A stretch of 64,000 nucleotides of DNA, from assembly GCF_008520305.1 (NCBI RefSeq), contig NZ_ML703283.1:46328-110327 (forward strand), given 5' to 3'. A program made the translations under genes and the position numbers. Position 1 is the stretch's first letter; each line of letters opens with the position of its first letter. Of this stretch, positions 18,302 to 53,738 are shown one piece after another. Source of the DNA: Mesorhizobium sp. SARCC-RB16n (GTDB lineage: Bacteria; Pseudomonadota; Alphaproteobacteria; Rhizobiales; Rhizobiaceae). Below the pieces are notes generated by a model. It had not been told where the DNA came from. It saw only the letters and a list, made by a program, of their open reading frames with translations, and made no database searches.

Positions 18302-18378
<77 letters not shown>

Positions 18379-34273: not shown

Positions 34274-34360
34274 CTTGCTCTCCAGTAGATTTCCCATGGG
34301 CACAGTAACTCCCATTGTATCATGTACGAACAGATTGAATGTTTTGTGTCATTTGTGGAA

Positions 34361-51652: not shown

Positions 51653-52744
51653 TCAGGCGGCGCCCTGCCGGCTGTCCAGCATGGCGCGGCGCGCCGAGCG
51701 GCACCATTCGACAGCGCCGGCAAGGCCGTGCAGCACCGTCTCGGTGGTCGCCCAGTCGATGCAGCCGTCGGTGATGCTCTGGCCGTAGACCAGCGGCTTG
51801 CCGGGCACGACGTCCTGCCGGCCGGCGACGAGATTGCTCTCTATCATGACGCCGATGATGCGCTCGTCGCCCGCCGCCACCTGGCCCGCGACATCGGCCG
51901 CCACCTTCGGCTGGTTCTCGGGCTTCTTGCTCGAATTGGCATGGCTGACGTCGATCATCAGACGGGGTGCGATACCGATGCGGGCGAGTTCCACGGAGGC
52001 GGCCTCGACGCTTGCCGCGTCATAGTTCGGCGCGATGCCGCCGCGCAGGATGACATGGCAATCCTCGTTTCCGGTCGTCGCCGCAATCGCGCTGCGTCCG
52101 CCCTTGGTCACAGCCATGAAATGGTGCGGCTGGGCGGCCGACTTCACCGCCTCGCCGGCGATCCTGAGATTGCCGTCTGTGCCGTTCTTGAAGCCGACCG
52201 GGCACGAGAGACCCGAGGCCAGCTCGCGATGGATCTGGCTCTCGGTCGTGCGCGCGCCGATAGCGCCCCAGGCGACGAGGTCGGCAATGTATTGCGGCGT
52301 CGTCATATCCAGGAATTCGGTCGCCGCCGGCAGGCCGAGATTGTTGACGGCCGAAAGAACGTTGCGCGCCATCCGCAGCCCCTTGTCGATGTTGAAGCTG
52401 CCGTCGAGGTCGGGATCGTTGATCAGGCCTTTCCAGCCGACCGTCGTGCGCGGTTTCTCGAAATAGACCCGCATGACGATCTCCAGCCGGTCGGCCAGGG
52501 CCTCGCGCAGCGCCGCCAGACGGCTGGCATAGTCGACGGCCGCGACCGGATCGTGGATGGAACAAGGGCCGACGATGACAACAAGTCGATCGTCGGCCCC
52601 GGTCAGGATGGAATGGATGGCGTTGCGCGAGGCGGCAACGGTGCGGGTCGCCGTCAGTGAGCGCGGTATCTCGCGCATCACCTCTTCCGGCGTGCTCAGC
52701 AGTCTAAGTTCCTTGACCCGAAGGTCGTCTGTGGTGGTCAACAC
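51653..52744 (-). CDS. aroG: 3-deoxy-7-phosphoheptulonate (DAHP) synthase, class I (AroF/G/H type)
   Basis: The 363-residue enzyme has the type I alpha motifs: VVIVGPCSIHDPVAAVDYA near 53, RVYFEKPRTTVGWKGLIND near 92, CPVGFKNGTDGNL near 180, and IDVSHANSSKKPENQ near 263, which hold the PEP, erythrose-4-phosphate and metal ligands. It catalyses the first step of the shikimate pathway. Upstream is a complete aromatic attenuator (52843-52963), so expression should rise when Tyr, Trp or Phe-tRNA runs short. Confidence 0.93.
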   Translation of the reverse strand: MLTTTDDLRVKELRLLSTPEEVMREIPRSLTATRTVAASRNAIHSILTGADDRLVVIVGPCSIHDPVAAVDYASRLAALREALADRLEIVMRVYFEKPRTTVGWKGLINDPDLDGSFNIDKGLRMARNVLSAVNNLGLPAATEFLDMTTPQYIADLVAWGAIGARTTESQIHRELASGLSCPVGFKNGTDGNLRIAGEAVKSAAQPHHFMAVTKGGRSAIAATTGNEDCHVILRGGIAPNYDAASVEAASVELARIGIAPRLMIDVSHANSSKKPENQPKVAADVAGQVAAGDERIIGVMIESNLVAGRQDVVPGKPLVYGQSITDGCIDWATTETVLHGLAGAVEWCRSARRAMLDSRQGAA

Positions 52745-52764
52745 GGCTTTCTGCTCCTGTTAGA

Positions 52765-52808
52765 GCAATTCCAGGAAAAGTGCGTAGCGGTTTTCCGTCC
52801 GGAATTGC
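52765..52808. repeat. Palindromic intergenic element in the aroG leader
   Basis: GCAATTCC (52765-52772) pairs with GGAATTGC (52801-52808) and inner GGAAAA with TTTTCC (52774-52779/52791-52796). The loop AGTGCGTAGCGG is the reverse complement of the core in the element at 41391-41494. It lies between the attenuator terminator and the aroG start. Confidence 0.65.
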
Positions 52809-52842
52809 GTAAAACTATGTTTGGGAACCTGCCGGCTGAAAC

Positions 52843-52867
52843 AAAAAAGCCGCCAGGTCTGGCGGCT
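52843..52867 (-). terminator. Attenuator terminator upstream of aroG
   Basis: On the minus strand AGCCGCCAG (52867-52859) and CTGGCGGCT (52856-52848) form a strong hairpin followed by six U residues (52848-52843). This is an intrinsic terminator about 100 bases before the aroG start. Its 5' arm can instead pair with CTGGCGGC inside the leader ORF (52921-52914), forming an antiterminator. Confidence 0.85.
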
Positions 52868-52891
52868 GTTCGGACCTTGTTGCTGCAATCT

Positions 52892-52963
52892 TCAGATCGA
52901 GCGCAATCCTCCCGCCGCCAGCGAGCTCCTAAAGTACCAATACGTGGCGGTCAGGTTGATCAT
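52892..52963 (-). CDS. Aromatic leader peptide of the aroG attenuator
   Basis: A 23-codon reading frame begins MINLTATYWYFRSSL, continues AAGGLRSI and ends with TGA. It contains four aromatic codons in a row (Tyr8-Trp9-Tyr10-Phe11). The DNA CCGCCA just before them (52950-52945) can pair with TGGCGG just after them (52920-52915), and that second segment can pair with the terminator 5' arm. This is the classic stalled-ribosome attenuation layout. There is no Shine-Dalgarno. The promoter places the first transcribed base at or next to the AUG, as known for the leaderless trpL of Sinorhizobium. Confidence 0.8.
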   Translation of the reverse strand: MINLTATYWYFRSSLAAGGLRSI

Positions 52964-52970
52964 GAGTGGG

Positions 52971-52999
52971 CGTATAGCTGAAGTCGCGTTGGATGTCAC
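52971..52999 (-). promoter_or_regulatory. Promoter of the aroG leader transcript
   Basis: On the minus strand GTGACA (52999-52994) and TATACG (52976-52971) are spaced by 17 bases. The -10 ends 7 bases before the leader ATG, so transcription should start at or one base before the AUG. This fits a leaderless leader peptide. Confidence 0.55.
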
Positions 53000-53023
53000 G
53001 CATCTGATGGCAATCTTGTATAA

Positions 53024-53041
53024 ATATGTAAGAATGCATAT
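53024..53041. promoter_or_regulatory. Candidate VapB operator
   Basis: ATATG (53024-53028) and CATAT (53037-53041) form a short inverted repeat in an AT-rich stretch just before vapB. TA antitoxins usually bind such palindromes for autoregulation. It lies only 25 bases from the aroG -35 element. Confidence 0.4.
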
Positions 53042-53070
53042 GTTGGATATACCCAAAAGGATATGCTCCA

Positions 53071-53316
53071 ATGCCGCTTTACGTGAAGGACCGGGAAGTC
53101 GACCGGCTGGTACTTGAGGTGCAGCGCCTCACAAAGGCGCCGAGTAAGGCCGAGGCGGTTCGCCGCGCTCTGACGCATGAAATCGAGCGCGCCCGCAGTG
53201 TCCAATCCGTGTCGGAACGCTTGGCGGAGGCAGTCAGAATGGCTGGCGAAATCGGAGCGGACAATCCTGACTTCGATATGAAGGCCTATTCGGACGAGCT
53301 CTCAGGCGGGCTATGA
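53071..53316 (+). CDS. vapB: VapB-type antitoxin
   Basis: The 81-residue protein begins MPLYVKDREVDRLVLEVQRL and continues KAPSKAEAVRRALTHEIER, the ribbon-helix-helix-like N-terminus of PSK-type VapB antitoxins, with an acidic C-terminal tail (DNPDFDMKAYSDEL) that would cover the toxin active site. It overlaps vapC by four bases (ATGA). AAAGG lies about 10 bases before the start. Confidence 0.88.
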   Translation: MPLYVKDREVDRLVLEVQRLTKAPSKAEAVRRALTHEIERARSVQSVSERLAEAVRMAGEIGADNPDFDMKAYSDELSGGL

Positions 53317-53738
53317 GCTTGTTCATTGACGCGTCGGCGGTTGTCGCTCTGTTACGCCCGGAGCCCACGGCAGGAGAACTCGCCGCCCGGATGGATGCCC
53401 ACGGCGGGCCTTTCTTCATTTCGGCGGTCGTTCGTTTCGAGACCGCAATGGCCTTGGCGCGTTCAAAGACCCCCCTGCCTTCACCCATAGAACCAGCGGC
53501 AATCACAAAGGCGAATGCCGCCGTTGACCGTTTCGTACAGGATTTGGGAATCGGCGAGGTCCTCATTTCGGCCGAAGTCGGGCGGCTCGCTGTCGAAGCG
53601 GCACGCAGCTACGGCAAGGGTGTCAATTCGCCGGCGCAGCTCAACATGGGCGATTGCTTTTCCTATGCCTGTTGCAAGGCATATAATTTGGCTTTGCTCT
53701 ACACCGGTCAGGATTTCACAAAGACGGACATACGATAG
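53313..53738 (+). CDS. vapC: VapC-type PIN-domain ribonuclease toxin
   Basis: The 141-residue PIN protein has the acidic active-site residues Asp6 (LFIDASAVV), Glu43 (VRFETAMAL) and Asp114 (NMGDCFSYA), followed by YTGQDFTKTDI. It is expected to cleave RNA, often tRNA, when VapB is degraded. The gene is translationally coupled to vapB, forming a complete toxin-antitoxin module. Confidence 0.9.
   Translation: MSLFIDASAVVALLRPEPTAGELAARMDAHGGPFFISAVVRFETAMALARSKTPLPSPIEPAAITKANAAVDRFVQDLGIGEVLISAEVGRLAVEAARSYGKGVNSPAQLNMGDCFSYACCKAYNLALLYTGQDFTKTDIR

Follow-up and report, generated by a model that had tools for sequence, protein, structure and literature searches.

The window analysed here is a stretch of 64,000 nucleotides from Mesorhizobium sp. 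SARCC-RB16n. On its minus strand, a gene for a class I DAHP synthase is preceded by a short leader ORF, whose control codons Tyr-Trp-Tyr-Phe are flanked by two complementary segments (1 and 2), and by an intrinsic terminator (GCCGCCA/TGGCGGC) composed of an 8-bp stem, a GACC loop and a run of Us (Table 1). A preliminary description of this DNA had reported a 23-codon ORF with the aromatic run at codons 8-11, and its coordinates and codons were confirmed on the minus strand. The terminator had to be redrawn: the stem and the Us are present, but arms of nine letters, as originally proposed, would leave a loop of 2 nt, and the first U of the proposed U6 is paired. The end of the U-run and the DAHP synthase gene are separated by 98 nt. 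In the lineage of the window this interval includes a dispersed repeat, which occurs in 42 to 151 copies (at most 2 mismatches) in six Mesorhizobium-group genomes and probably accounts for the longer terminator-aroG spacer. On the other side, a divergent VapBC-like toxin-antitoxin pair lies upstream of the attenuator promoter.

Table 1. Predicted elements of the aroG leader region and neighbouring features in the window
Feature	Position	Strand	Remarks
-35-like element GTGACA	52994..52999	-	TGACA frequent some 30 to 35 nt upstream of the leader ATG in Mesorhizobium and other alphaproteobacteria
-10-like element TATACG	52971..52976	-	17-nt spacer to GTGACA, 7 nt to ATG
Leader ORF, 23 codons and TGA, encoding MINLTATYWYFRSSLAAGGLRSI	52892..52963	-	No Shine-Dalgarno sequence; predicted to start at the 5' end of the RNA
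Leader start codon ATG	52963-52961	-	
Leader stop codon TGA	52894-52892	-	
Control codons TAT TGG TAC TTT (Tyr Trp Tyr Phe)	52931..52942	-	Codons 8-11
Segment 1, core CCGCCA	52945..52950	-	Able to pair with segment 2
Segment 2, CTGGCGGC	52914..52921	-	Partner of segment 1 or 3
Spacer hairpin (predicted) surrounding the leader stop codon	52872..52909	-	Between segments 2 and 3; clear in Mesorhizobium only
Segment 3, AGCCGCCA	52860..52867	-	5' arm of the terminator and antiterminator partner
Segment 4, TGGCGGCT (52855-52848), and U-run	52843..52855	-	3' part of the intrinsic terminator; predicted end of the terminated RNA of about 121 nt
Dispersed repeat GCAATTCCGGACGGAAAACCG	52808-52788	-	Between terminator and aroG
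Class I DAHP synthase (aroG/aroFGH), regulated gene	51653..52744	-	TIGR00034, E 6.7e-156, above cut-off
VapBC-like pair	53071-53738	+	PF07704 and PIN domain PF01850
tRNA-Arg(CCG)	18302-18378	+	Single tRNA gene of the window

To assess how readily such a leader arises by chance, we searched shuffled and reversed sequences. When the upstream 330 nt were shuffled 20,000 times with dinucleotides preserved, 135 shuffles gave an ORF of 10-40 codons with at least four consecutive aromatic codons, and the window itself contains one further ORF of this kind, at 34339 (+). An automatic picker, which looks for an aromatic ORF with a terminator behind it, was applied to 135 upstream regions and was positive in 108 of them, versus 3 of 1,350 shuffled, 1 of 135 reversed and none of 135 reverse-complemented sequences. 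At the gathering threshold, Rfam detected the tRNA alone in the window and no family at the attenuator. When the threshold was relaxed for positions 52600-53100, four sub-threshold matches were obtained and treated as chance, the best being RNAI over the terminator region (23.1 bits, E 0.042, gathering score 47), followed by Phe_leader RF01859 (18.5 bits versus a gathering score of 55, E 1.6).

A Shine-Dalgarno duplex at least as stable as -5 kcal/mol was found at the leader ATG in 1 of 24 alphaproteobacterial and 0 of 26 beta- and gammaproteobacterial representatives, as opposed to 17/24 and 21/26, respectively, at the aroG starts, in agreement with the earlier statement that the leader has no such site. 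By eye, TGACA-like and TATA-like hexamers are located at a near-constant distance from the ATG in most of the 24 alphaproteobacterial representatives; the -10-like hexamer is TATATG in most Mesorhizobium, where it includes an in-frame ATG, and TATACG in the window, where it does not. Of the promoter proposed earlier (GTGACA-17-TATACG), the hexamers, the spacer and the positional conservation stood, but a scan with the sigma-70 consensus called no promoter at the attenuator, so that the assignment, a prediction, draws on conservation rather than on match quality. The distances between hexamers and ATG fit a leaderless RNA in alphaproteobacteria, as had been proposed for the window. In some Burkholderiaceae and Oxalobacteraceae, TATA-like motifs were noticed by eye 30-44 nt upstream of the leader, and a short untranslated leader is therefore likely there.

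The preliminary description further held that pairings 1:2, 2:3 and 3:4 are mutually exclusive. Judging from the sequences, the 3:4 pairing is well supported: 98.2% of it was paired on a 28-row alignment, and its covariation score was equalled by 0 of 500 shuffles. It counts against the attenuator reading that GCCGCC/GGCGGC hairpins also serve as ordinary Mesorhizobium terminators, for example after an ATP synthase subunit b gene. For the 2:3 pairing on the same alignment, 82.6% of cells were paired, compared with at most 54.9% for slid versions and with no shuffle as high among 500; 35 of 500 shuffles equalled its covariation score, and 17 of the 28 rows cannot form the base pair at one helix end. 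The predicted antiterminator is backed by complementarity more than by covariation, which is weak. We also compared the duplexes of 50 dissimilar leaders with dinucleotide shuffles (p < 0.05). The 2:3 duplex was better than shuffles in 29 of these representatives (p 0.007 in the window) and the 1:2 duplex in 11, the latter reaching -18.8 kcal/mol in the window (p 0.003). Hence, the antiterminator and terminator pairings of the proposed scheme were upheld, but 1:2, exceeding shuffles in so few leaders, is a weakly supported prediction across the representatives. Segments 2, 3 and 4 have changed jointly in two loci, L057 and L129. No convincing 2:3 pairing was found in L078 (Rhizobium tropici SARCC-755) and L123 (a genome of the window's family), which share a branch of the AroG tree and have kept the aromatic codons.

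The best explanation of the element, to which we assign a probability of about 90%, is ribosome-mediated attenuation of transcription on a leaderless RNA. The leader, its codons, the segments, the terminator, the gene, their conservation and the missing Shine-Dalgarno site are read from the DNA, and we infer from them the start of the transcript, the stalling of the ribosome, read-through and the effect of each amino acid as follows. RNA polymerase would start at the leader ATG or 1-2 bases off, so that the leader peptide would be translated from a leaderless RNA. As long as charged tRNA-Tyr, tRNA-Trp and tRNA-Phe are ample, the ribosome would pass codons 8-11 and reach the stop codon, where it would cover or disrupt the 2:3 antiterminator, and the 3:4 terminator would end the transcript at about 121 nt. 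If one of the three charged tRNAs is scarce, the ribosome would stall at the cognate codon and cover segment 1; 2:3 would then form ahead of the synthesis of segment 4, and the polymerase would continue into the class I DAHP synthase gene.

In a folding model of the window, the probability of the terminator was 0.97 without a ribosome. With only the downstream RNA folded, it was 0.02-0.52 when the A site was at codons 2-11 but never below 0.96 from codon 12 on; with the ribosome footprint masked and the rest folded together, relief was weaker, the values at codons 8-11 being 0.05, 0.62, 0.46 and 0.71. The model thus predicts a response to a stall at any of codons 8-11, which supports the sensing of aromatic tRNAs inferred earlier. 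The boundary of relief shifts by about one codon with the assumed footprint, and with the largest footprint a stall at Phe11 gives none. In three loci with an extra Tyr codon (L003, L017 and L033), the modelled boundary lies downstream, with partial relief up to that codon. Modelled relief is weaker in Bradyrhizobium, and equilibrium folding yielded none in L131, L052, L074 and L086 and little in L128; for these loci, kinetic trapping would have to be assumed. Stalls at codons 2-7 likewise relieve termination in the model, so that specificity would depend on the control codons being rate-limiting. Furthermore, before segment 4 is synthesized the model favours 2:3 even without a ribosome, which, together with the few leaders in which 1:2 is significant, makes the protection of termination uncertain.

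We examined the control codons of 54 representative leaders. All 54 contain Tyr and Phe codons, and 34 contain Trp codons (20/28 in alphaproteobacteria, 14/26 in beta- and gammaproteobacteria). The suggestion that three aromatic tRNAs are sensed at once therefore fits Mesorhizobium but is not general among the relatives. The same counts would favour an attenuator responding to Phe and Tyr only, with an incidental Trp codon. However, in the 38 Mesorhizobium sequences (37 loci and the window), the TGG of codon 9 is as invariant as ATG, ATC, CTG, GCC and the TTT of codon 11, codon 8 being Tyr or Phe throughout, and a stall at codon 9 reduces the modelled terminator probability. We consider a Phe/Tyr-only attenuator possible but rather unlikely.

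Phe is encoded by TTT in 122 of 162 cases in the leaders versus 53 of 352 in aroG of the same loci. The TTT/TTC ratios were 46/15 in leaders and 19/156 in aroG for the 28 alphaproteobacterial loci (p 7e-21, related sequences being counted as independent in this and the other P-values) and 76/25 and 34/143, respectively, for the 26 beta- and gammaproteobacterial loci; the corresponding shift of Tyr codons is smaller. These biases bear on a TnaC-like mechanism, in which the leader peptide would sense free aromatic amino acids via nascent-chain arrest rather than charged tRNA via codon stalling. Such a mechanism would agree with the conservation of the peptide in Mesorhizobium, but the Phe bias acts at the codon level, and the order, number and spacing of the aromatic residues, as well as the peptide beyond the aromatic run, differ between genera, which renders it very improbable.

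Genomes were searched with covariance model R1, built from 28 alphaproteobacterial leaders, two of them from Mesorhizobium, and hence partly derived from the group searched. An aromatic leader precedes aroG in 39/39 loci (L001-L039), 37 of which belong to the Mesorhizobium group. R1 scored at least 94 bits in 35 of 38 Mesorhizobium-group genomes and adjoined aroG in the 34 with both positions known, all but G790; the three genomes without the element, G007, G014 and G025, are also without class I aroG. Class I DAHP synthase is rare in alphaproteobacteria, with 18 of 387 genomes over the cut-off. All 17 of these loci with readable upstream DNA have an aromatic leader and a terminator, although L120, L124, L125 and L132 contain no run of three aromatic residues, L120 having one Phe and one Tyr only. 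The 18th locus, L118, is cut by a contig end, and an R1 match is located at the end of another contig of the same genome. In a draw of 241 alphaproteobacterial genomes, which may not contain the ten remaining class I aroG carriers of the 387-genome survey, R1 reached at least 90 bits in 8, and 8/8 carry class I aroG.

Away from class I aroG, the 38 Mesorhizobium-group and 241 alphaproteobacterial genomes contained no R1 match above 90 bits, except in G217, where the match is located at the end of a contig and the split-off aroG elsewhere; the next best score below the aroG-linked matches was 35.4 bits. Ten weak full-length matches were inspected individually for other genes under the element. 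L207 is a terminator after an ATP synthase subunit b gene, and L209-L211 have similar endings by eye. At L208, L185-L187, L204 and L205, there was no clear aromatic leader at the match, with chance Trp-rich ORFs elsewhere in some. Because R1 matches co-occur with and adjoin class I aroG, and aromatic codons precede this aromatic pathway gene across many families, it is extremely improbable that the element is an independent, terminator-ended gene for a small RNA or small mRNA, whose position before aroG would matter little, despite the discrete predicted promoter and terminator and the dispersed repeat inserted before aroG in the window's lineage. The preliminary description recognized an attenuator with aromatic control codons, and its conservation ahead of the class I DAHP synthase gene covers Mesorhizobium, Bradyrhizobium and Devosia and extends well past these genera.

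Of 103 AroG proteins placed on a tree, 85 were scored as having the leader and 16 as having none, and 2 (L076 and L118) could not be scored. The 85 of 101 scored loci, nine of which were called by eye after failure of the picker, are mostly from Alpha- and Beta- and some from Gammaproteobacteria; they were sampled by similarity to the AroG protein of the window and do not represent an unbiased census. Presence is clustered on the tree (5 changes versus 15.1 on average after shuffling). Among the carriers are Bradyrhizobium, Devosia, Methylosinus, Rhizobium tropici SARCC-755, Oxalobacteraceae, Burkholderiaceae, Xanthomonas and Rhodanobacter, whereas Methylotenera, Thauera, Azoarcus, Dechloromonas, Chitinimonas and Enterovibrio are among those scored as absent. 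One of the loci called by eye, L101, is from a contig of a metagenome-assembled genome labelled Anaerolineae (Chloroflexota) and has, ahead of class I aroG, an aromatic-rich leader (MSRYFSFFSWYGYFAAG...) with a longer hairpin of a different kind.

Attenuation through aromatic codons is classical. The pheL attenuator has Phe codons and the 1:2 / 2:3 / 3:4 logic, both in common with the aroG leader, but precedes a different gene with different codons, and the window remains below the gathering score of its Rfam family (see above). The ilvGMEDA and thrABC leaders each sense several amino acids of their pathway and, like the aroG leader, have more than one control amino acid; their codons, however, are branched-chain or Thr/Ile rather than aromatic, and enterobacterial leaders have Shine-Dalgarno sites, which the aroG leader does not. 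The Sinorhizobium meliloti trpL leader (rnTrpL/peTrpL) has, according to two reports, a leaderless ORF at the RNA 5' end, a run of control codons and a terminated attenuator RNA (PMC7298713, PMC10117765), all of which have predicted counterparts in the aroG leader. Unlike the latter, trpL controls trpE(G), senses Trp and encodes a 14-residue peptide, and its function in trans has been demonstrated. Putative attenuators at tyrA operons, including aroA-I-alpha-Y > tyrA of Vibrio, were listed from Merino's database in another study (PMC1173090); they also tie predicted attenuation to class I DAHP synthase, but are predictions in other organisms.

At the level of titles and abstracts, we found no earlier description of an aroG leader peptide in alpha- or betaproteobacteria; the comparative survey by Vitreschak et al. 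2004, the likeliest place, and Merino's attenuator lists were outside this scope. As far as this literature search and Rfam show, an attenuator with several aromatic control amino acids at class I DAHP synthase, predicted to be leaderless in alphaproteobacteria and spanning several proteobacterial classes, is new. With it, rhizobia and many other proteobacteria would have an RNA switch at the entrance to the aromatic pathway. A class II DAHP synthase was matched in 31/31 Mesorhizobium-group genomes, 29 over the family cut-off, and in 4/4 genomes examined it had neither an aromatic leader nor an upstream T-run, which also favours the attenuator reading of the class I leader; the switch would thus divide the labour between two isoenzymes, one attenuated and one not.

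The element would also offer a second family of leaderless attenuators for examining how common trans action is among released leader RNAs. By analogy with Sinorhizobium rnTrpL/peTrpL, the terminated RNA of about 121 nt might be a dual-function regulator, a small RNA and an aromatic peptide, conserved in the Mesorhizobium-Bradyrhizobium lineage and linking aromatic supply to other mRNAs, a role that we regard as unlikely. A conserved trans-acting peptide was not supported outside Mesorhizobium, the C-terminal part of the leader differing between genera. Within Mesorhizobium, the constraint extends to synonymous sites: in the C-terminal part, 8/8 fourfold-degenerate sites are invariant among 37 sequences, versus 107/119 variable in aroG, a contrast that also speaks for the attenuator. 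This freeze exceeds what the segment 2 helix alone needs, and part of it may be due to the predicted hairpin around the stop codon, which has z-scores of about -1.3 to -3.6 in Mesorhizobium (mean of -0.66 over the representatives) and whose inner stem takes two alternative forms across the genus.
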